Shown here: positions 27,386-62,990 of the stretch, one piece after another
Layout: each line of letters begins with the position of its first letter
Position numbering within the stretch: position 1 is the stretch's first letter
Program-made: the position numbers and the translations under genes
The notes under the pieces: model-generated
Told to the model about the DNA's origin: nothing
Database searches by the model: none
Seen by the model: only the letters and a program-made list of their open reading frames with translations
Assembly (NCBI RefSeq): GCF_035083965.1
Contig: NC_089724.1
Coordinates: 2,632,501 to 2,696,500, forward strand
Direction: 5' to 3'
Source of the DNA: Branchiostoma lanceolatum
Lineage: Eukaryota > Chordata > Leptocardii > Amphioxiformes > Branchiostomatidae
DNA length: 64,000 bases

Positions 27386-27583
27386 TCTCCAAGCAGATCT
27401 CCACGGTGCACCGAAAATCGTATATGCTAGCCAGAGAAGCTCTAGTCAGCCAGATAAGAGCCAGTCAGCCAGATATAGATAAGCTCTTATCTGGCTGACT
27501 GGAGCTTCTCTGGCTGACTGGAGCTTCTCTGGCTAGCATACTAAGTATACGATTTTTGTGCACCGTTTAGATCTGCTTGGAGA
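27386..27583. repeat. Long hairpin MITE, CTCCAAGCAGATCT ends
   Basis: Near-palindrome of about 198 bp. Ends TCTCCAAGCAGATCT / AGATCTGCTTGGAGA; the centre repeats CAGCCAGATAAG words in both orientations. Lies in intron 1 of G. Confidence 0.85.
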
Positions 27584-27970: not shown

Positions 27971-28345
27971 AAGGCATTTTTGTCCCGATCTTTGCTGCGC
28001 TATTTCCCTGTATTATCTGTCGGGGTTTGCGTGCAAACTACAATGTGGTAAAAATAGCCATGTCGATGAAGAAAATCAAGATGGCGACAGCGTGGTCTTC
28101 TTTTGTTTTGTTTTGACATTGTTGGGTTTGGTGTGAATGAGGGGTGTGAAAATGTACCCCCTTCGCATCGTGATAATCCAAGGCTTAGGATAATAAAATT
28201 TGAAAGGATAGAAATAAACAAACAAAAAACCTGGACATGTTCAAAGACAGTAGTCTCTGCCAGACTAACCGCGCCGGCTATAGGGAGAACATTTGCCGGG
28301 GGACTTTGGCTATGGAGGGTAACATTCGCAGCCGCAGTTATGCTA

Positions 28346-28537
28346 CTCTCCAAGCAGAGGAGTGGGTCCGACAGGTTTTTGGAGTGTTTTTAGGCGTTTT
28401 TGTCGGGCTATCTACTTTGTCATGGTTTCTTTATCTCTGGTTATAGAGATAAAGAAACCATGACAAAGTATATAGCCCGACAAAAACGCCTAAAAACACA
28501 CTAAAAACCTGCCGGACCCACTCCTCTGCTTGGAGAG
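28346..28537. repeat. Hairpin MITE, CTCTCCAAGCAGAGG ends
   Basis: Nearly perfect palindrome of 192 bp. Ends CTCTCCAAGCAGAGG and the complement, flanked by TA on both sides. Arms contain GTGGGTCCGACAGG and GGCGTTTTTGTCGGGCTA. The copy at 61340-61540 shares the arms. Lies in intron 1 of G. Confidence 0.9.
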
Positions 28538-29015
28538 TAATATTGGACCCTATCTCCGTAGCCGACTCCCTTCATACAGTTGACTCTATTTTGGCCAATT
28601 TTTACTATTTTCCCAGCGACCCGCGGATGCCTACAAAGACATGATGCATGTGGTTAAGTAACTCAGCCGTAATGTAATGTAACTTTGTAAGTTGTGTATG
28701 TCTGCGGCGGATGGGTCCGTATTAGCCCATTCATAGGGGTAAGGTCCCCTGGCTTGTACACAGTTGTCGCAGTTCTTGTCTCGACCATTGTCTCGATTTG
28801 CATAACAATGTCCAAACGGGTTTGTTTACGTCTCAAGGGCCTTCAACTTTGACACTGCACATGCATATTCGAATCTAGGAGTCATCCAAAAAAGTCCCAA
28901 ATTTTTTTGTTCTTGGTAAATAAAATCTAGCCTTTAAATGATATAATTTACCAACAGAGATTGACTTTTATGCCAAGTAATGGACGTTTGCGTATTTTGT
29001 TTTGCAGTTTATAAG

Positions 29016-41280: not shown

Positions 41281-42784
41281 ATGTCGCTCCCACAGCGCGA
41301 GGGTTCGGCTACAGTTATCTACCAAGCAGATCCGGAGTCTGGCAAAGAATTCGACAATCCGAAGTACGGACGGGCCCCTGATTTGAGCCGCGTTGCTATG
41401 GCGACGTATGCTACTACGGGACCGTCCAGCAGAGCCGGTCAGGATGGGGATCAAAACTACACGGATCTTCGCAGCGATGGGGGAACGGTCTGTGGTACAG
41501 AGGAGTCCAGACAGGGAGCTCGCAACCAGGACTACGAGCCAAGAGCGGAGTTGGGGGGTGGCGATACGGAATTCGCAACGAGTCCAACACTGGATTGGGG
41601 CGATATAGGTATGAGTTTCTATTCTTGTATGAGGTTCTATTCTGATTTATATTTTAAACTCGTTTAATACATCATGTTAGAAATAGAAGATGATAGTGTC
41701 AGAAAGTTTTGAAAAACTTTATCCAGTTGCTTGAGTAATTATCTTTGGCGTATCTTACTACCTGGATGTCTAACTTTCATCAACGTACGTAAGACATGTT
41801 AAAAAAAAGTGGAATTCATTTTCAAAAATATATTGCAAGTAAGACAGGTCTCTGGCTGGTATATTATTACAACGATTTTTTTTTATTTATAAACAGTGTG
41901 CGCTGATTCGCAGTTTGGTTATGTTAACAACAAATGATTTATTTTGGATTGATGAAAGGTACTTTTCAAATCACAGGAGACGACAGAAATCAGCGGCACA
42001 ACAATGCCGATGCTTCGCTTGCCACGAATGACACCCAAAGCGATAAAAATGGTGTACAAGACGAGAAAGACGACCCATACGACCACACGTACGAACGGTG
42101 CTCAGAGGGCGACCCCGAAAATCACACAAACAACCGGCTGTCACAAGCGGCGGAAGACGGGCCCGAAAACCACACATACTACAACCGATGGTCAGAGGGC
42201 AACCCCGAAAACCACACATACAAAAACCACGCGTACAAATGCTCGGAGGGCGACCGCGAAAGCCGCACATACAACCAAGGACAAGCGACGGAAGACGGCC
42301 TCGAAAACCACACGAATAACCGGTGCTCAGAGGGCGACTCCGAAAACCACACGTCAGAGGGCGATCCCGAAAGTCACACGAACAGCCGATGGTCAGAGGG
42401 CGACCCGTACGTGCCTATGAGATCTTTAGACGCGACTGAAGAGTCCACGCCCCACAGTGACCAACAGGAGCAAGTGGAACGTCGGATCCCAAACAGGAGT
42501 TCTGACCAGTCTACTCAACATCAGCCATCTGGTAAGTGTTTAATGATAATAAGTAATGATAGATTTATTGCAGCCCATTGCAATCATATTGCAGCCCACC
42601 CCTAGTGGCGTCCAATGGTCGATTGGCTAGGCTAGCGTACACATGATCGGGTTATGTGTGTGTGTGTGTCGTGTGTGTCGTGTGGTTGTGTATGTGTGTC
42701 AGTGTATGAGTGTGTGTGTGTGTATGTATGTATATGTGTGTGTCTTTGTGTGTCTGTCTGTGTGTGTGTGTGTCTGTCTGTGTG

Positions 42785-42825
<41 letters not shown>

Positions 42826-45680
42826 ATGTGTGTGTGCGAGTGTATATGAGCGAGTGCGTGTGTGTGCGTCACGGTGTGGGAGGCTGACACTGCGACGGGT
42901 TTTCCTTTCGTTGTGAAGAAAACGAGCCCAGTTCAGTAGAAATTAAGTTTTTTTCAGGTAAATGAGTGAATAAATCGATATGCGACTAATCAAATAACAT
43001 ATCGAGGTTATATTCGTGAGATCAAACGACCTTTCAGGCAGTCGTATCAAAACATGAAAAAAGAATGTTTGGATCAAACGTCTGCCATTCACAAGGGAAT
43101 GAAAATTGTTTTTCAGCAAAAATCAAGCAAGCGTAGAAAGACCGAGTGTGGCAGCCAGTTATCTATATCAAACATAGCAGATTTCGTCCTCCAGAAAGTT
43201 TAATAAGAGTGATTTTTTACCAGTTTAACCTGTCAGCCTGTCTACTTAGCTGCTATATAATAATAGCTTTATTGCAAAACAATTGTACATGGTACAAACT
43301 ATGGAATCCACTGGTACATAGATGAAGTTCTATTAGGCTAATCAATCTATCTAATAACAATATGGTGTAGTATTATGGGATGACAATGGGATTTTACAAT
43401 CATTGGAGGGGTTTCTAATGTCTAGATATTCTTTAATATATTTTCCAATCTATACCATGAGTTTCACCGCAACCGGGAGCGATCTAGTTAAGCTAAGGCC
43501 GTAAACCACCCCCGAGCGGGCTAATCTGTCTGGGCGGGCGGGCACCACACCCAGCGCCGTAGAGATACCGGGGAGCTCCCGATGGTATGCTAGACAGCCT
43601 GTGGTGACAACCTTTTCCTGTCACTCTACTATATCCAAATGACTACGGACACACACCAGCACAAACAAACACACACCGAAAACAATTCATCCGTTTACAC
43701 GTTACAACTTTTATTTACTTTCTTTGTGATACTGGTTCTTCCATTGTTTGTGTAAACTGGGCCCCGTTGAAAATCAATTAGGTCGAATGGCGCAACCCAG
43801 TTGACTTTGTCTGAATTTCAAATGATTAGATAGATGTAATTATGCACTTTTACAGGCAGGCGCAGTAGCGCCAAGGCCGACGAGGACAAAGCCGAAGACC
43901 ATGGACGAATGACTTTCCTTGCCCGGATCCAACAGGCGGTGAAGCGTTCCCGTGTTCTTCTCGTGGCCACCGCTGCCCTCATCACTGCCGTCGTGGTCAC
44001 CTTGGTCTTCGTCGCGATTTTTAGCACTTCCCGACCACAAGCATTTCAGACACAGGTTAGTTCATCGTCATCATCATCTCATTGTGTGGTTGTCTGGCGC
44101 AACGGCAGAGTGTTCTGCTCTGAACCAAGTGGTCCCGAGTTCGAACCCTAGCATATGTCATCGATGTTAGATTTGTCACGTATAGATATGTATATATACA
44201 GTACATGTACATGTATTCGAATCTGCTTTTGACATCGAGTATCTTGAAAGTTATTGTACTTAAGCAAAGAAATGCTACTTACTACTTAAAGTAAACGTAT
44301 CATGTAAAGTCATGTGTAGATCATACTTAAGGCAAAATGAAATTAAGCAAAACCACAACCACATATTCAACAAGAGCCAACGTTTCGGGGACTGTCTCTG
44401 TCATCTTCATCATGGCAAGACTGGCTGGTTTCACTGGTTTCCCTGTGCACTGAAGCTAGGTGTTACTGCTAACAATTAATACGTTTGGGACTTCATTTAC
44501 AGAGCAGTGAGAAGGACCAGTTAAACACGGTTTCAACGCCCTCCAGTCTCTCTCCTCCAACAACTCTTCAGACTTCCTCTAACGGAATTAAGACGGTTAG
44601 AAACGCCGTTCTGTTTCTATCTAGCACACCATGATTCACATGAGTAAGGCCACAGCAAATAAACTGTATGAATGCCATCCCCTGCAGACTCCAAATCCAA
44701 TGCGAGAGTGCAAAAGAAAAAAAAAGTATGCCAAGATTTTCAAGATAGAGACCATCAACACTGTAACAAGAACTGCAGGGACAAAACTTTGTTTTGCAGC
44801 CAACAAGTCTTTCATTCTTGTATTCAAGAAGTGCAGAAAGTGATGCTAGACGTGCTTGAGACTCCCGTGCTTAGTGTACGGGAAACCTTGTCCGCTTTTT
44901 CTTTTCGTCCGTGCTCACTACAGTTGAAGTCTGCAGAGGATTTCGTACATAAAATTTACTTGCTGTAGCCTTAGTTAGTATCAATACTACAAGTGCACTA
45001 ACGGCTATCTCGATCACGACATGCATGGTCTTCATTCAGTTTTGGTATTTTCTTGTGGATATGGCACATCGCCGAAGGGGGGCGATGTTTCTGTACGATA
45101 TACTCGCTGTTGCCTGATTTAAAAGTTGTATTTTTTCATGTAAGAAAGATCGTTTTCGCAAAGATAAAAGAGAGCATAAAGATCACTTAGGCCCCTGTCG
45201 ATCTCATTGGACCCGTGGCACGTTGGCGGCCTCACTGCGTTCTAAATTGGATTTGTGTTACCTTGACATTATAATGGGAATATCATGCAAAACGTTCAAC
45301 AAAACACACACATCTTAAAAAGATCCGTTTTTGATCGATGAAATATGTTGAGGGCTCTGTGACATCGTCAGGCCGCAGTGAGGTCACCATCGTGCCGCGG
45401 GTCCAGCGAGATAGGGGCTTTTGTGTCGCGCAATGTCACCAATGTTTTTTTCTTCTTTTCTATTCTCTGCAAAGGGTACGCTTGGGACTGAGAGTGACAT
45501 GACAAGCCGCCAGGAAACAATCCCTACACGTGGGTCTTACATATCGTTTGAGGCATCCTTTGTTATTTACCGGCTTTTCTTTACGGTACCCGTACAGTTA
45601 GCCTTCGGGCATGGATTTGAACCTAAGAATGACACATACACACGGGCACAAAATTAACGTGCGCGCGCACACACAAACAA

Positions 45681-45763
<83 letters not shown>

Positions 45764-48700
45764 CTTCAGTAAACAGTCTACGTTGGAAATAAGAGTACTG
45801 GTCTCTTCAAAAGCGCTCATGTTTGTTTCCTTTGGACTCCAGACTCCTTCAGCTCCTCCACCGTTGCCATGGAAACGGTGACGTCGGCCCCGCCCCTGCT
45901 GGCTGGCTACAGGACTACAGGGGTCCACACCATCCGTCCTCCGGGCGTGGAACGGCCAATCCAGGTTCTTAGAGCAGCCTCCAGTTTAATTTGGGAATTT
46001 CCTTCCTTCCTTCCTTCCTTCCTTCCTTCCTTCCTTCCTTCCTTCCTTCCTCCCTCCCTCCCTCCCTCCCTCCCTCCCTCCCTCCCTCCCTCCCTCCCTC
46101 CCTCCCTCCCTCCCTCCCTCCCTCCCTCCCTCCCTCCCTCCCTTCCTTCCTTCCTTCCTTCCTTCCTTTATGCCTTATTCTTTCCTTCCTTCGTTCATTT
46201 ATCTATTCATTCATTCATCCAGGTTCTTGAAGCAGCCTCGAGTTTAATTTGGGAATTTTAGTTTAATTTGGGACTACCTCCCTTGTTTCATGTAGTCTTA
46301 AATCCAAATGGTTTAATATCACAGTTATCATTGTTGCCCTCTGCTAGTTTTATGCAGGTAATGTAAAATGTATGCAATTCAGTCTGCGGCAGTGATGCAC
46401 TTTCAATAGTTTATCATAATAAACTTCCTTCCTTCCCTCCTTCTTTCTATCCTTTCTTCCTTCCTTCCTTCCTTCCTTCCTTCCTTCCTTCCTTCCTTCC
46501 TTCCTTCCTTCCTTCCTTCCTTCCTTCCTTCCTTCCTTCCTTCCTTCCTTCCTTCCTTCCATCCATCCTTCCTTCCTGCATTCCTTCCTTTATTCCTTTC
46601 TTCCTTATTCCTTCCTTCGTTCATTTATCTGTTCATTCATTCATTCATTCAGGTTCCCTGCGAAACGGACACCTCGGGTAGTGGCTGGACAGTAATTCAG
46701 CGCAGGTTTTTATTTATTTTCTTTTTTTATTCATTTACATCTAGGCCATGTTGATTTGATTATATGGATAATATCCCATGGGCAGCCCAAAACTGATGCG
46801 AGCATGCGAAAAAAATTGAATTCTTAATGGTTAGGAAGGTTAACGTTGAAAAATGACCAAACACTAATAATAAACTATATTTCTGTTCTGTCATATTTTT
46901 GATTTCGCTCATTAGTATCCATTTTCTGGTGTGTTTTGTTTTGTGTTGCATTTATTTGCTTATTCTGCAGCTTCTTTGTCGCAAATCCTCTCTTTTTGCA
47001 AATGGACGAAAAGTGATGCTCGCGTGGATGCCATCCATATGATTAAGTCAGTGTACATATGGCACTGCACTCTAGTTGGTAACTTATGTTAACAGCAACA
47101 TAGATGAACAAAATTAACCTAATGATTAAAAATATAATAACAATGATTAATAACGTCATGGAAACGCCCAAGAAGTCGCCCTAGAGGAAGATGGGAAGAC
47201 CAGATCTTCGACACGCTCCAAGGGCTGGGGGTCACCAGAACCGACTGGATAGTCTACACCGAGCAAACCTTGATTTATTCTAAGATTCATTTGGGAACGA
47301 ATAACCATTATACGAATGTTAACAAAAAGATAACCTAGCCCTCTACATAATGGAACGGTCGAACGGGTGTGTTATGACGTCATAACACATGGGCAATGGA
47401 GGCTTCTGATTGGTCGATGCCATCTGGCCATGTGATAATGATTGATAACATTTATTAGTCAATAGGGATTGATGTGAATTCTGAAACAAGTTTTAACTTT
47501 TAAATTTCCAACACAAAAATTGGACTTACCCCAATTTTCGACTGCACAACACCAGTCTTTGTCAATATGTGAGCAATCCACCGCTGAGATGACGTCACGT
47601 TATGCAAACGCCACACGTGACTCGGTGAGCAGTTGATCTTGAGTTGTAGAAAGTCTGTGGCGCCCCCCGTCTCTATTGAGAGATGGTTGTAAGACCCTGA
47701 TGTAAATGGCTTCCTTAATTCCTCTTGCAAGAAAGTCCGGTATTATTTGTTTATTAGCTTAGCTGTTTTGGACACACAGCCAACTAACCTGAGGCTTTTA
47801 CAAAGGGCTAGCCCTGCTGACAAGGACAAGGCAGTACAAATGCATAACGAGCTACAACAATATTCTAAATACATGAACATATTAAAAACTATCCTACATA
47901 ATAATTCAAAATATTAATAACGTCTATAATGGTGTCTACATCGGGAGGTCAGGATCAGTACGTCACAAACTACGTGTACATTGTGTGTATATATATATAA
48001 ATGGTTTTCTTCAGGAATTGACATACAGAAATTAAAACAGCATTGCAGGCGATGTTACCTTCTTTCAAGTAAACCGGCTGAATTACGCAGATTTAAGATT
48101 AAAAGTACAAAAGACCACACTCAAACAATCGGAAAATATATACAAAAGACAAAATGTACAACCAACAGTAGCATATATAACAGATTACACCTTACAAATT
48201 GGTGTTCAGTAGTTGAACACCAATTTGTCAGGTGTAATCTGTTATATATGCTACTGTTGGTTGTACCGGCTTTCATGTAACTCCTGTTTCTGCGCAGGTT
48301 TGACGGGAGTGTGAGTTTTGAGCGGCCATGGCGCGACTGCAGGGACGGGTTTGATGTAACTCCTGTTCCTGCCCAGGTTTGACGGGAGCGTGAGTTTTGA
48401 GCGGCCATGGCGCGACTACAGGGACGGGTTTGATGTAACTCCTGTTCCTGCCCAGGTTTGACGGGAGCGTGAGTTTTGAGCGGCCATGGCGCGACTACAG
48501 GGACGGGTTTGATGTAACTCCTGTTCCTGCCCAGGTTTGACGGGAGCGTGAGTTTTGAGCGGCCATGGCGCGACTACAGGGACGGGTTTGATGTAACTCC
48601 TGTTCCTGCCCAGGTTTGACGGGAGCGTGAGTTTTGAGCGGCCATGGCGCGACTACAGGGACGGGTTTGATGTAACTCCTGTTTCTGCCCAGGTTTGACG

Positions 48701-50052
48701 GGAGCGTGAGTTTTGAGCGGCCATGGCGCGACTACAGGGACGGGTTTGGTGACCCACAGGGCGAATTCTGGCTGGGGTTAGAGGTCATCCATCAGCTGGT
48801 AAGCCGAGTGGCTACAATTATATTTATGCTATCTAGGACCCCGTTCACGCACAAAAAAGTGAACCGGATCAAACATTGAGTCCGATAGAAATGATCCGAT
48901 CGCGATTGATTTTTGCAGTGTGAACGCTCCCAATCAGATTGGGTCTGGTCCAAGCGCCACTTACTGACCAGTCTAACGGATCCGAACCTTTTAAATAGCC
49001 TAGTGGTATTTAAGTGAGTTACTTGAAGCACGCTATTACAATGGGAGGATTGGACCGGCCCTTGGACTGACCCTACAAACAGTTTGGTTTATGCAAACTA
49101 TCCTTTTGTACTGTATCATTATGTACAGTAAATTGTATTCTAATGTATATTGTAATGATTCTTTACTCCATTTATTGTAGGTTCACAAGTTGTATGTCCG
49201 TCTGTACTTTTGTGGGTCAGCTGTTACCAGCGAGAGCTGCCCAGGCTGACCCAGTGTAACAACTTGTTATCATTGTCAATAGATACCAACTGCGTTGATT
49301 TATAATCAGCATATTAATCGAAGCAATAGTAGGGCCCGAAAATTGGATTTTGAAAGTCAGCTTATTTAGTCATTTCTATGCATGATTAGTTCAAACAGAA
49401 CTATGCCCGTGTATAGCGACATCCATGATGCAAAAATATGATGACGGTGTGATGTGAGAACTCACTGAAAATCGTCTCGTTTTTTTTTGTTTTTTTTGTT
49501 AAAACAGTTTTAGCAGAAACCTCCTTGGTTTTAGTAAATGTCCCTACCATATAGATTTCAGCATTTTTTTTATTTCCATTTTTTGGGCCCTAATATTGCT
49601 TTGGTTGCCTTTAAAATATATGCGATCTTCTATCACAGGTGAGCCGGGAGACTCACGACCTGCGGATCGAGCTGGGCGACTGGGAGGGGAAGGAGGCGCA
49701 TGCGCAGTACAGCCGGTTCAACGTCAGCGACGAGGCGGATGGATATCGGCTCGACTTCGGTGATTACACCGGGACCGCGGGAGACGGTCTGGCCGCTTAT
49801 GAGAAATATTCTGCCGCGGGGTCGGAAACGCAGCTGGACTATCACAAGGGCCGCGCGTTCAAGGTTTCGAAAGAAAGACAGGGCTGGTGGTACGGGGATT
49901 TCACATTGTCCAACCTGAACGGACCTTACATCAACTCATCGGTTAGTGCAGATGTACACTCTACTATTTACTGGATGCCTTGGTCGAGATGCTCCTTGAA
50001 GACCACCTGCATGATGGTACGACCAGCGACATTCGTATCTGGACGGGGGTAG
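41281..50052 (+). CDS. Type II membrane protein with fibrinogen-related domain (FIBCD1-like)
   Basis: Exons read by eye: 41281-41608, 41977-42531, 43856-44055, 44503-44595, about 45843-45964, 46653-46705, 48693-48798, 49639-50052. All junctions keep frame except the left border of exon 5, which is unresolved (an extra exon may be missing). About 615 codons. Exons 1-2: long polar tail with FDNPKY (an NPxY-type motif) and NYTDL, then 7-8 degenerate [13 protein letters not shown] repeats. Exon 3: basic stretch VKRSR, then a membrane helix [20 protein letters not shown]. The positive charge before the helix implies N-terminus inside. Exon 4: Ser/Thr/Pro stalk. Exons 5-8: fibrinogen domain ([68 protein letters not shown]). 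The usual Asp-rich calcium loop and the late cysteine pair are missing. Known relatives bind acetylated sugars in innate defence. That role is inference here, and the missing loop argues for altered binding. Confidence 0.8.
42655..42870. repeat. (TG)n-rich microsatellite in intron 2
   Basis: Imperfect TG repeats with TGTC and TATG interruptions. Confidence 0.95.
43495..43600 (+). repeat. Fragment of the TAGCCTGG family
   Basis: GGCCGTAAACCACCCCCGAG, TGTCTGGGCGGGCGGG and GCCGTAGAGATACCGGGGAG match the inner right half of 32466-32729 and 52209-52473. Left end absent. Confidence 0.7.
44078..44165 (+). repeat. tRNA-like head of a SINE in intron 3
   Basis: A-box-like TGGCGCAACGGCAGAGTG and B-box GAGTTCGAACCCTAG, same head as the SINE at 3905-4140. 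The body is missing. Confidence 0.7.
45189..45418. repeat. MITE-like inverted repeat, CCCGCGGC family, copy 2
   Basis: Left arm GCCCCTGTCGATCTCATTGG.. and right arm ..GTCCAGCGAGATAGGGGC are inverted over about 45 bp with gaps. Same inner words as copy 1 (TTGTGTTACCTTGAC, ATTATAA, reversed orientation). Confidence 0.75.
45658..45762. repeat. (CA)n microsatellite in intron 4
   Basis: Nearly pure CA repeat of about 100 bp, starting with a GCGCGCGCA run. Confidence 0.95.
45993..46168. repeat. (CCTT)n / (CCCT)n microsatellite in intron 5
   Basis: Pure pyrimidine tract: CCTT units, then CCCT units, then CCTT again. The copy of exon 5's downstream flank (TTGAAGCAGCCTCGAGTTTA) follows at about 46225, so the tract lies between duplicated flanks. 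Confidence 0.95.
46425..46590. repeat. (CCTT)n microsatellite in intron 5
   Basis: Second long CCTT tract, about 60 bp before exon 6, followed by ATTC repeats (46632-46650) that form the pyrimidine-rich side of the exon 6 acceptor. Confidence 0.95.
46743..47070. repeat. MITE-like element, GGCCATGTTGAT family, copy 2
   Basis: Left part GGCCATGTTGATTTGATTA..CAAAACTGATGCGAGC, right part GATGCTCGCGTGGATGCCATCC and ATGATTAAGTCA, inverted. See the copy at 3053. Confidence 0.7.
47165..47274 (+). pseudogene. Reverse-transcriptase-type C-terminal remnant
   Basis: One frame reads [20 protein letters not shown] followed by [15 protein letters not shown]. The [10 protein letters not shown]...DW arrangement is common at the end of LINE-type polymerase proteins. 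Only about 36 codons remain. Confidence 0.5.
48156..48266. repeat. Near-perfect 111-bp hairpin in intron 6
   Basis: Arms of about 53 bp: GTACAACCAACAGTAGCATA.. and ..TATGCTACTGTTGGTTGTAC, with TTACAAATTGGTGTTCA near the centre and a 4-nt loop. Lies 30 bp before the tandem acceptor array. Confidence 0.9.
48276..48692 (+). repeat. Tandem array of intron end plus partial exon 7, 79-bp period
   Basis: Exon-start copies lie at 48298, 48377, 48456, 48535 and 48614, and the real exon at 48693, all exactly 79 bp apart. Each has a TGTAACTCCTGTTYCTGCSCAG acceptor and the first about 57 bp of exon 7 (GTTTGACGGGAGCGTGAG..). Only the last copy runs on into the full exon with a donor. Entering at an earlier copy gives ..[13 protein letters not shown] and a stop. 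Confidence 0.95.
49321..49614. repeat. Dispersed repeat, AAGCAATATTAGGGCCC family, copy 3
   Basis: Starts AAGCAATAGTAGGGCCCGAA, ends GGGCCCTAATATTGCTTTGG (inverted). It lies directly before the acceptor of exon 8. Confidence 0.8.
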
Positions 50053-50275
50053 GGCTTCTTTTTGTCTGAACAAACTCTCTCAGTGCAAGGCCGTAGCATC
50101 TAAGCACTGACTAATTCTAACTGTACCAGCATCTCTTCACCCTAGATCAGAAACATCAATGCTCGAGACAAGCATCACTTCACTGACCCATTAGGAGAAG
50201 CAGGGCTTACGAAGGCTTGTGCCTTAACCTCCTTGCCCATTCACACCGCAAGCTCGAGAGAACCATTCCTAATCT

Positions 50276-50404
50276 CTGAACGGCCCGTACATCAACTCAT
50301 CACTCCCTGCACATGTTAGCTCTATTCACTGGAGATCTAGGTCGAGATAATCCCTGAAGTGCATCTGTATGATGGTGCGACCAGCCACAGTCCTACCTCT
50401 GTAA
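50276..50404 (+). pseudogene. Second copy of the terminal fibrinogen exon piece, with stop
   Basis: Reads [20 protein letters not shown] then RSR and TAA, then [14 protein letters not shown]. Homologous to the end of exon 8 ([19 protein letters not shown]). Confidence 0.8.
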
Positions 50405-50586
50405 CATATTGTGGGTTCAAAACCCTCCAGAACTCAAAATAACCCTGGGAATCAGTCCAATAGGAGGTCAGGATTCTCTGTCACCATGGAAACCAGTCAT
50501 TAAAGCCTCCGACACCATGGTAACAGACAGTTCTCATTCTGACAGTAGTAGGTCGATGTTAGTTCAAGCTTTCTATAGCAAGACAG

Positions 50587-50745
50587 TATGGGGACTTCAC
50601 GTTATCCAATCTGAACGTCCCGTACATCAATTCATTAGTCCCTGCAAATGTAAGCTCTATTCATTGGAGATCTTGGTCGGGATTTTCCCTGAAGTCTACC
50701 TGTATGATGGCACGACCAGCGACATTCGTATGTGGACAGGAGTAG
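50587..50745 (+). pseudogene. Third copy of the terminal fibrinogen exon piece, frame open
   Basis: 52 codons and a stop: [53 protein letters not shown]. An AG directly precedes it (TATAGCAAGACAG), so it could serve as an alternative last exon, but no matching donor inside exon 8 is evident. Confidence 0.7.
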
Positions 50746-51199
50746 GGCTTTTTTTTTTAACGAACTCGCTCAGGGCAAGGCCGTAGGGGGGCACTCATCT
50801 AAGCACTGAACTAATTGTCACTGTAGCAGCATCTCTTTACCCTAGGTCAGAAACATCGATGAATGAGACATGACTTCAATGACTCATTAGGAGAAGCAGG
50901 GGTTACGAAGGCTTGTGCCCGTACCAAGAAGGCTAAAATAAGATCTCATTTTAACACCTCGCTAGCTCGAGAGAACCATTCCTAATCCCAGAACTACCAA
51001 TAGGAGCTGTGGATTTTTTATCACTATGAAAAACGGTCCAATGGGAGGTCAGGATTCTTTATCACTGTGAAAATCAGACCAATAGGAGCTCAGGATTCTT
51101 TATCACTGTGAAAATCAGACCAATAGGAGCTCCTAGGAGGTAGGCCTCAGACACTTCAGTATTTTTATCTGTATATAGCCGGTATAACCGAACTTTAGC

Positions 51200-51800
51200 G
51201 CAATACATCAGCTTCTGTATCTGTAGTATCTATAAAGCTGGTAGAAACGCCTTCGGTGTAACACACCAGTCACCAGCTTCTGTATCTTTATATAGCCGGT
51301 ATAAACGCCCTTTGGTGTAACACACCAGCTTCTATATCTGTATCTGAATAGCCAGTATAAACGCCCTTTGGTGTAACACACCAGCTTCTATATCTGTATC
51401 TGAATAGCCGGGTATAAACGCCCTTTGGTGTAACACACCAGCTTCTATATCTGTATCTGAATAGCCGGTATAAACGCCCTTTGGTGTAACACACCAGCTT
51501 CTATATCTGTATCTGAATAGCCGGGTATAAACGCCCTTTGGTGTAACACACCAGCATCTATATCTGTATCTGAATAGCCGGGTATAAACGCCCTTTGGTG
51601 TAACACACCAGCATCTATATCTGTATCTGAATAGCCGGGTATAAACGCCCTTTGGTGTAACACACCAGCTTCTATATCTGTATCTGAATAGCCGGGTATA
51701 AACGCCCTTTGGTGTAACATACCAGCTTCTATATCTGTATCTGAATAGCCGGTATAAACGCCCTTTGGTGTAACACACCAGCTTCTGTATCTGTATCTGG
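51200..51800. repeat. Minisatellite, 56-57-bp unit, about 10 copies
   Basis: Unit contains CGCCCTTTGGTGTAACACAC and CAGCTTCTATATCTGTATCT; the last bases vary between CCGGTATAAA and CCGGGTATAAA. Diverged units flank it on both sides (51140-51290, 51800-51900). Confidence 0.95.
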
Positions 51801-56720: not shown

Positions 56721-57828
56721 TCCGCCAATGCTGTGTCTGTCAGTCTACCTACCTTTTACTTTCATCACAACGTCACATATATCCCTTACTGACTCTATCT
56801 AATGCTATCCTTCTGCAACTGATATCTCATTCCTTCCCCTCACTCATCCTCTATTCTTCGCCCCTTTTGCTCAAAGTACATATTGCCATCCCCTTTGATA
56901 AATTGATAAAGACTCATGTTCAATGTGCCTTAATCTCACTCGAATTACTTCAACAACTTCAGCAATAAGTTAACCTTGATATTGCTTTCTATTTTTCTTC
57001 CCATTCTCAATTCTCCATTATAACATCAAATATGTCTTAATCCAAAATTGAAGGGAGGGAATGAATATTACTGTTTCCCTTAAAGGTGAAGAAAAATAAG
57101 CGATGACGAAAATTTTTGGCTGATGACTATCGAACGTTGAATAAACTAAATCAAGTTAGTTAACAAATCACTAATTACAGTATACTTATAAACGTGTACA
57201 CGTACCCACAGCCAAACCAAAACATATATATATAACTATACATAAATACGCGTAAACGTACCTCAGTACAAATGCGTACAATTATTGATGACAAAATATA
57301 GAATACCACAGGCAGATAAACAGACTTTTAATAAGTATGCCCAAGGAAGGACAAACATGATGCGAATTTATAAACTCATCAAATATAATTATATGTTATC
57401 AAGCCCTTGAAAAGACTAGACCTCCCTCAGTAGCCGCATGGTGGTTTGTTCTGTTTCTCTTTGCTCAAGATGTTCCGTGCGTTCCCATTAACGCTTGCAT
57501 TTCCTGTTAAAACCATGCAAATAAAAGAAAACAAGAATACAAAACACCTCCTGTTATCATTACACATTATACAACAATGCACTTTTGCTAATCTAACGCC
57601 GGGCAAAAAGAATTACTGAAACTTTCTCGACAAAGCATTGTCAGTCTCTAAATACCGGAACAAAAACTCAAAATCTCATCACATAACACTCGGCCAAAAC
57701 GTAAATAAAATAACACTGTGTCGAACAGGTAACACTTCACCTGGTGAAACGTCTTGCTAACAACGCTCATTCACAGCTGAATAAACGTTAATACTGAAAA
57801 AAAAAGACACACAAACATAAAAATTACT

Positions 57829-58560
57829 GCCTTAACGGGAACACATGCACACCGCAACACGTACCCCGTTCGACCAAGTGTCGAATCGGGAAATAATACA
57901 ACACTCCCACTTGGCTTAATGCCTTACCGGGAACACATGTACACAACAACACATACCCTGTTCGACAAAGTGCCGAACCCGGGAAATAACACTCCCACTT
58001 GGCTTAAACTGCCTTACCGGGAACACATGTACACAACAACACATACCCTGTTCGACCAAGTGTCGAACCCGGAAAAAACACTCCCACTTGGCTTAATGCC
58101 TTACCGGGAACACATGTACACAACAACACATACCCTGTTCGACAAAGTGCCGAACCCGGGAAATAACACTCCCACTTGGCTTAATGCCTTACCGGGAACA
58201 CATGTACACAACAACACATACCCTGTTCAACAAAGTGCCGAACCCGGGAAATAACACTCCCGCTTGGCTTAATGCCTTACCGGGAACACATGTACACAAC
58301 AACACATACCCTGTTCAACAAAGTGCCGAACCCGGGAAATAACACTCCCGCTTGGCTTAATGCCTTACCGGGAACACATGTACACAACAACACATACCCT
58401 GTTCAACAAAGTGCCGAACCCGGGAAATAACACTCCCGCTTGGCTTAATGCCTTACCGGGAACACATGTACGCAACAACACATACCCTGTTCGACAAAGT
58501 GCCGAACCCGGAAAATAACACTCCCGCTTGGCTTAATGCCTTACCGGGAACACATGCACA
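57829..58560. repeat. Minisatellite, 88-bp unit, about 9 copies
   Basis: GCCTTACCGGGAACACATG starts at 57921, 58011, 58098, 58186, 58274, 58362, 58450 and 58538, and a diverged first copy at about 57831. Later units drift together (CCCACTTGG to CCCGCTTGG, TTCGACAAAG to TTCAACAAAG). Confidence 0.95.
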
Positions 58561-58854
58561 CATTAACACATACACAAAATAACACATACTCACCTGCCAA
58601 AACCGGGACACACAACAGGGAAAATTACGAAATGCAGAAGTAAATAAACAACAACGAAAACATTCACAACGTAAAAGGGGAAAGCAAAACAACAATCAAA
58701 TATTTTGTCAAAACATTAGAGAAACGCAATCACGACAAAAAAATATATTACAGAGCTCAACAAAGCAATGATAATTTCGTCATAACTCATGTAAATCAAA
58801 ACTAGAGAGGGCGACACGAAACTGTAGGGATCTCTTGTGAGAAAGCGTACACCT

Positions 58855-62689: not shown

Positions 62690-62990
62690 CTGTACGCTCC
62701 AAGCAGAGGTTCGGTTCCGCCTGTTTTTTTTACGTGTTTTAATGCGTTTGTGTCCTAGCCTGGGTGCCATCCTATTTCTACCGGGGCTCCTACACTCGCT
62801 ACCCTCAAAAAATATGAGCTAGGGTAGCGAGTGTAGGAGCCCCGGTAGAAATAGGATGGCACCCAGGCTATTTGTGTCAGGCTTTCTACTTTGTACCGAT
62901 TTCTTTATAAAAGAGAAAACGACAAAAAAGCCAACAACACGTAAAGAAACCAGCCCGTGCTGTCGAAGCTCTGGTTGGAGAGTATCTTCT
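62690..62990. repeat. CTCCAAGCAGAGG-family MITE carrying a nested element
   Basis: Left arm CGCTCCAAGCAGAGGTTCGG, right arm ..CTCTGGTTGGAGAG; inner words TTTTACGTGTTTTAATGCG and CAACACGTAAAGAAACC are inverted. Interrupted at 62755-62870. Confidence 0.75.
62755..62870. repeat. 116-bp perfect-type palindrome inserted in the MITE
   Basis: CTAGCCTGGGTGCCATCC.. and ..GGATGGCACCCAGGCTA, arms of about 54 bp around ATATGAG. TTTGTGTC stands on both sides (62747-62754, 62871-62878). It belongs to the TAGCCTGG family by its ends. Confidence 0.9.

Follow-up and report, generated by a model that had tools for sequence, protein, structure and literature searches.

In a stretch of 64,000 nucleotides from Branchiostoma lanceolatum (contig NC_089724.1, positions 2,632,501 to 2,696,500), called the window in the following, we studied a gene with a fibrinogen domain in which an intron/exon boundary is repeated in tandem, so that six near-identical splice acceptors stand in front of one exon. 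The exon numbers 5–8 follow a preliminary description of the locus, and the gene is described here from a part of exon 5 onwards. The upstream coding exon, exon 6 (46653–46705, + strand), ends in CGCAG followed by gttttt. The real exon behind the array, exon 7 (48693–48798, + strand), has a length of 106 nt and a donor consisting of CTG followed by gtaagc, and the last coding exon, exon 8 (49639–50052, + strand), contains the remaining fibrinogen-C domain and the stop codon. With their native donors these three exons can be joined in frame only via acceptor 6, the last of the six. The distance from exon 6 to acceptor 1 is 1592 nt and to acceptor 6 1987 nt, and intron 7 has a length of 840 nt.

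The joined product of 226 residues, covering a part of exon 5 and exons 6–8, matches the Pfam family Fibrinogen_C (PF00147) over residues 16–218 with an E-value of 1.3e-49 and 169.4 bits. Exon 7 alone reaches 3.3e-10 and exon 8 alone 3e-19, confirming that the exon behind the array indeed belongs to a fibrinogen domain, as had been proposed. The best match in the PDB, among the best 60 of 68 distinct sequences, was angiopoietin-2 (4.6e-44), and angiopoietin-1, ficolins and FIBCD1 were matched as well.

Structure and history of the array

The six tandem acceptors in 79-bp units noted in the preliminary description could be confirmed with Tandem Repeats Finder (48267–48748, + strand, period 79 bp, 6.1 copies, 98% matches, score 915) and by an alignment of the units. 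The same spacing was obtained from a second repeat search, and the word CAGGTTTGACGGGAG is found six times, each copy 79 bp from the next. The array starts at 48267, slightly upstream of the previously given 48276. Each unit combines the final 23 nt of the intron with the first 56 nt of the exon, the boundary being predicted from the reading frame, and hence spans the intron/exon boundary, as do the units of the amphioxus minisatellites known as mirages. The copying of the exon start had been recognized correctly, but with a length of 57 bp; since base +57 is an A at the unit junctions and a G in the real exon, the copied part amounts to 56 bp. Unit comparison, supported by the reading frame for acceptors 1 and 6, places the six intron ends on the + strand at 48275–48297 (acceptor 1, ending in gcgcag), 48354–48376, 48433–48455, 48512–48534, 48591–48613 and 48670–48692 (acceptor 6, which gives the intact domain with the native donor), where the second number is the last base of the respective acceptor.

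No differences were found in any pairwise comparison of units 2–5 over the 79 bp. Unit 1 differs from each of the other units at four of 79 positions, with three changes being private to it, and unit 6 differs from units 2–5 at two of 79, namely at tract position -9 and at +57, where the real exon continues. At position -9 a T is present in units 1 and 6 and a C in units 2–5. One of the private changes of unit 1 replaces Tyr by Cys in the copied exon, as expected for a copy outside of translation. Uniform inner units together with edge units diverged by four and two differences correspond to the concerted evolution described for the BflGb6 mirage, and the earlier view of a young or homogenised array agrees with this pattern. 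As both tested features, the unit spanning the boundary and the homogenised inner units with excluded edges, are present, the array fits into the mirage class. From the distribution of the variants we infer as the simplest history an original duplication with a T at -9, a change to C in one inner unit and the subsequent amplification of that unit. Copy number probably varies between haplotypes, and with 482 bp the array is within reach of single reads. A 35-base pattern from the unit had no exact match in collections of genome contigs and viral contigs, which is expected for an animal gene.

Consequences of using each acceptor

In combination with the native donor of exon 7, acceptors 1–5 would give exons of 501, 422, 343, 264 and 185 nt, compared to 106 nt for acceptor 6. 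All five lead to a TGA after 28 codons, located 416 to 100 nt ahead of the next exon junction, and the truncated product covers Fibrinogen_C profile positions 11–67 of 221 only. Acceptor 6 is the sole one restoring the Fibrinogen_C domain with this donor.

We also set up a fuller splice graph with the AG|GT of the units (CAG|GTTTGA), the internal GTGAGT at +14 and the native donor as donors and a minimal intron length of 40 nt, which resulted in 728 paths. The C-terminal frame is kept in 12 of them, comprising the normal path, five paths in which a 79-nt exon from one of units 1–5 replaces exon 7, and six that include a microexon of 13 nt. The claim that every early choice ends at a stop after about 28 codons is therefore correct with the native donor but too strong in general, as another 11 paths in addition to the normal one preserve the frame. 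For the replacement of exon 7 this has a one-in-three chance of occurring, as 79 and 106 both leave a remainder of 1 when divided by three. All 11 shorten the fibrinogen domain, and the Pfam score drops from 169.4 bits to 125.5 with a unit in place of exon 7 and to 103.1 in the microexon form. Productive isoform diversity was considered as a role of the array and is unlikely, because a stretch of the domain is lost in these replacements and the Pfam score is reduced.

Choice among six near-identical acceptors

In every unit a branch-point-like A lies 22 nt upstream of the AG, scoring 6/7 for acceptor 1 and 7/7 for the others in an ad hoc score, and every acceptor has 12 pyrimidines among the 16 positions from -20 to -5 as well as 32 AG-free bases (64 for acceptor 1). 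Counting the six array acceptors, 40 of the 4064 AGs on the + strand match this tract score while also having 30 or more AG-free bases and a pyrimidine at -3. Over the 30 bases 5' of the exon acceptors 2–5 share one sequence, from which a single T/C exchange sets acceptor 6 apart, for which reason local sequence strength was dropped as a discriminator. As the local sequences are almost indistinguishable, the choice among acceptors 2–6 must rest largely on context. Folding of 48100–48850 did not single out acceptor 6 by predicted accessibility: the mean unpaired probability is 0.38–0.43 for branch site and tract across the six acceptors (0.43 for acceptor 6), 0.28–0.51 for AG|GT (0.35) and 0.20–0.42 for GTGAGT (0.42).

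Context does single out acceptor 6, which gives the shortest exon with long introns on either side and is the only one that runs directly into the open exon and its donor. A database study reports a preference for the pair of splice sites nearest to each other across the exon where the flanking introns are long (PMC9225289). We thus favour, with a probability of about 0.7 and on the basis of the sequence, that the array is a mirage, that is a neutral minisatellite formed by tandem duplication and amplification of the 3' intron/exon boundary, in which the last acceptor wins by proximity. According to this model the boundary would have been duplicated in tandem and amplified afterwards, and the array would be transcribed within intron 6. 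As both flanking introns are long, exon 7 would be recognized across itself, so that the acceptor nearest to its donor (106-nt exon vs 185–501 nt) would prevail and the five upstream copies would be spliced out as intron. Rare use of the upstream copies would mostly yield messages with a premature stop, which would then be degraded, and the array itself would have no dedicated function.

Several points weigh against this explanation. The native donor of exon 6 is weak, with a duplex energy of -5.6 kcal/mol when paired with the 5' end sequence of U1, the longest AG-free stretch of the six belongs to acceptor 1, and the AGs at 47731 and 46915 in intron 6 score above the array acceptors in the ad hoc score. 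Furthermore, alternative 3' splice sites overall favour the upstream site according to PMC9225289; for long introns on both sides this upstream bias is described as significantly reduced only, even if the authors conclude in favour of the pair closest across the exon. The precedents from amphioxus are also incompletely covered by complementary DNA (cDNA), as Table 1 of PMC3087553 lists only partial cDNA coverage for BflGb6, and in PMC3902484 the sole PGBD5 cDNA represents the N-terminus, while an automatic gene model takes the repeats as exon.

Comparison with known systems

Arrays of this type are already known from lancelets, to which the gene content of the window also points, and the fibrinogen-domain gene would add a further host. 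Like the mirages in Adh3, BflGb6, BflGb9, troponin C and PGBD5, the last two being cited as further amphioxus cases in PMC3902484, the array consists of tandem boundary copies with splice signals in the units. It resembles BflGb6 most directly, since in both the 3' intron end and the exon start are repeated, the number of six units is shared with one BflGb6 haplotype and the inner units are homogenised. For BflGb6, PMC3087553 describes six and three units in two haplotypes and units with 81–100% identity that are homogenised inside with the edges excluded. The same paper states that cDNA data for Adh3 and globin suggest no interference with regular splicing. In contrast to these mirages the host is a fibrinogen-domain gene and a palindrome adjoins the array, and the unit of 79 bp differs in length from those of Adh3 (10–72 bp), BflGb6 (150–160 bp) and BflGb9 (157 bp) given there. 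Neither a mirage in a fibrinogen gene nor a recursive-splicing account of mirages was found among the matches listed in a literature search of titles and abstract starts.

The array can also be compared to intron gain by tandem AGGT duplication (Rogers model), as described for the potato RdRp gene in PMC4974935. Here as there, AGGT is duplicated together with a branch site and a tract, so that the copied boundary also brings an AG and a potential donor. The array is distinct in having six units and in a reading frame that requires no extra unit. With NAGNAG and other tandem acceptors it shares the competition of 3' splice sites, which here are 79 nt apart and each have their own branch-point-like A and tract. 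Six near-identical complete 3' splice sites in one intron, of which one gives an intact domain, represent a natural experiment on acceptor choice, in which distance to the donor, order of transcription and re-splicing could be told apart as competing rules. The locus could also show directly whether new introns arise by way of boundary minisatellites.

Alternative explanations

A different route to the same normal message would be recursive splicing. With CAG at the end of exon 6 and GTTTGA at the start of every unit, any early splice would re-create the donor CAG|GTTTGA, from which splicing could proceed anew in exact steps of 79 nt as far as acceptor 6. The donor CAG|GTTTGACG is common to all six acceptors and represents a junction-recreated 5' splice site as defined for recursive sites, and every 79-nt step offers a branch-point-like A, a pyrimidine tract and an AG. 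With -6.4 kcal/mol its U1 duplex is more stable than that of the native exon-6 donor CAG|GTTTTT (-5.6 kcal/mol), compared to -8.0 kcal/mol for the exon-7 donor and -14.0 kcal/mol for the consensus, and its score is equalled by 5–10% of the 3802 GTs on the + strand. The duplex is nevertheless composed of CAGGU and one isolated pair, making it a weak site in absolute terms, and the donor persists after correct splicing, where it would endanger exon 7. Junction-recreated donors are described for animal recursive exons in PMC6224609, at a proportion that is similar in the deuterostomes studied there, but according to the same paper such re-splicing is repressed by the exon junction complex in human cells, as are nearby internal donors that would make microexons. 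The array is like recursive splicing exons and ratchet sites in that the acceptor is directly followed by GT and the junction re-creates a donor; it is unlike them in having six such sites in tandem, a weak donor and a minisatellite origin. Given the weakness of this donor and its persistence after correct splicing, we consider recursive splicing rather unlikely. Every unit holds both a junction donor and an internal microexon donor, which makes the locus a suitable test case. If it were true, such a ratchet would explain the tolerance of AG|GT-type boundary minisatellites and make them a reservoir for new introns.

The regulatory idea of the preliminary description would amount to a regulated switch, in which the early acceptors act as poison sites that set the level of the full-length receptor or lead to truncated proteins lacking the greater part of the binding domain. 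The outcome of acceptors 1–5 with the native donor, a stop after 28 codons and 100–416 nt before the next junction and a truncated form with profile positions 11–67 of 221, would suit such a role, but stops in identical decoys need no function, and other mirages are said to leave splicing undisturbed (PMC3087553, PMC3902484). Regulatory elements were sought via sequence repeats, folding and Rfam, the latter without a match in the window at the gathering thresholds, and none of these gave positive support. The proposal of a switch is improbable and also not needed to account for the array, which is of interest as an object for testing acceptor choice and intron birth and not for a demonstrated function. 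An incipient gain of an intron or cassette exon, with a unit either taking over from exon 7 as a 79-nt exon that ends at the AG|GT of the next unit or supplying a 13-nt microexon via GTGAGT, could build on the 11 non-normal in-frame paths (five and six, respectively), and the potato RdRp intron was gained by such a boundary duplication with a donor recruited as a cryptic site from the upstream exon (PMC4974935). The one-in-three chance of a shared remainder, the lost domain stretch with its decrease from 169.4 to 125.5 or 103.1 bits, and the fact that the microexon path would be possible in unit 6 without any array make such a gain highly improbable. Hardly more can be said for a dead gene or an assembly artefact. 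Two extra partial copies of the last-exon end lie 3' of the gene, one with an in-frame stop by eye, and copy number was misassembled in the draft for the BflGb6 mirage (PMC3087553) and differs between assemblies for PGBD5 (PMC3902484). A decaying gene is at odds with the open frame through part of exon 5 and exons 6–8 and its Fibrinogen_C match of 1.3e-49, and a misassembled copy number with the distinct variants in units 1 and 6 and an array of just 482 bp, so that both are very unlikely.

Palindrome and surrounding features

Directly adjoining the start of the array, hairpin search and folding identified a near-perfect palindrome in intron 6 (48156–48266) with 53-bp arms, one mismatch and a 5-nt loop. 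The RNA fold of 48140–48290 has an energy of -87.6 kcal/mol (z -16.5), and none of 200 shuffled sequences was as stable. No 14-mer from the first 50 bases of the palindrome arm recurs in the window. With a minimum arm length of 25 bp and loops of up to 30 nt, the window contains four hairpins that do not overlap each other, of which one adjoins the array, one overlaps 19-bp repeats (27429–27534) and two are 601 and 1644 bp away from the nearest listed array. The chance of a random 111-bp segment to lie within 5 bp of an edge among the 23 listed arrays is 0.005, a value that is suggestive only because the test was chosen after the adjacency had been seen. As a conjecture, the palindrome may have caused the array via replication slippage. 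At the duplication junction no perfect microhomology was visible by eye, but the exonic CGGGTTTG is similar to the intronic CGGCTTTC.

Another boundary copy is present in intron 5, where the exon-5 donor boundary ATCCAG|GTTCTT (45959–46000) recurs 258 bp further on at 46217–46258. The copy includes 36 bases past the AG, is identical at 39 of 42 bases and lies behind a TTCC-rich pyrimidine tract; an acceptor and a donor are thereby juxtaposed, which resembles a second mirage or a ratchet site.

In the alignment of exon 8 (49639–50052) with angiopoietin-2, one region lacks the cysteines and the acidic stretch of that protein, so that the fibrinogen domain looks unusual there. We take this region of angiopoietin-2 to be its calcium site. 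The end of the last coding exon occurs in three copies (49915–50063, 50276–50421 and 50611–50756) with a spacing of 335–361 bp; the second shows a stop in its frame by eye, and the other extra partial copy is open in frame with no Pfam match. Upstream of the joined exons, at 41928–42605 and 43840–44053, a repeat-rich open frame (GDPENHT-like) and a hydrophobic segment were found, which had no Pfam family above the cut-off and might possibly encode a tail and membrane anchor of the fibrinogen-domain gene. Long palindromes are also located at 28340–28543 (100-bp arms, seven mismatches) and 62756–62870 (51-bp arms, one mismatch), and past the last exon of the gene two further minisatellites follow at 51166–51799 (57-bp unit, about nine copies) and 57824–58573 (88-bp unit, 8.5 copies).

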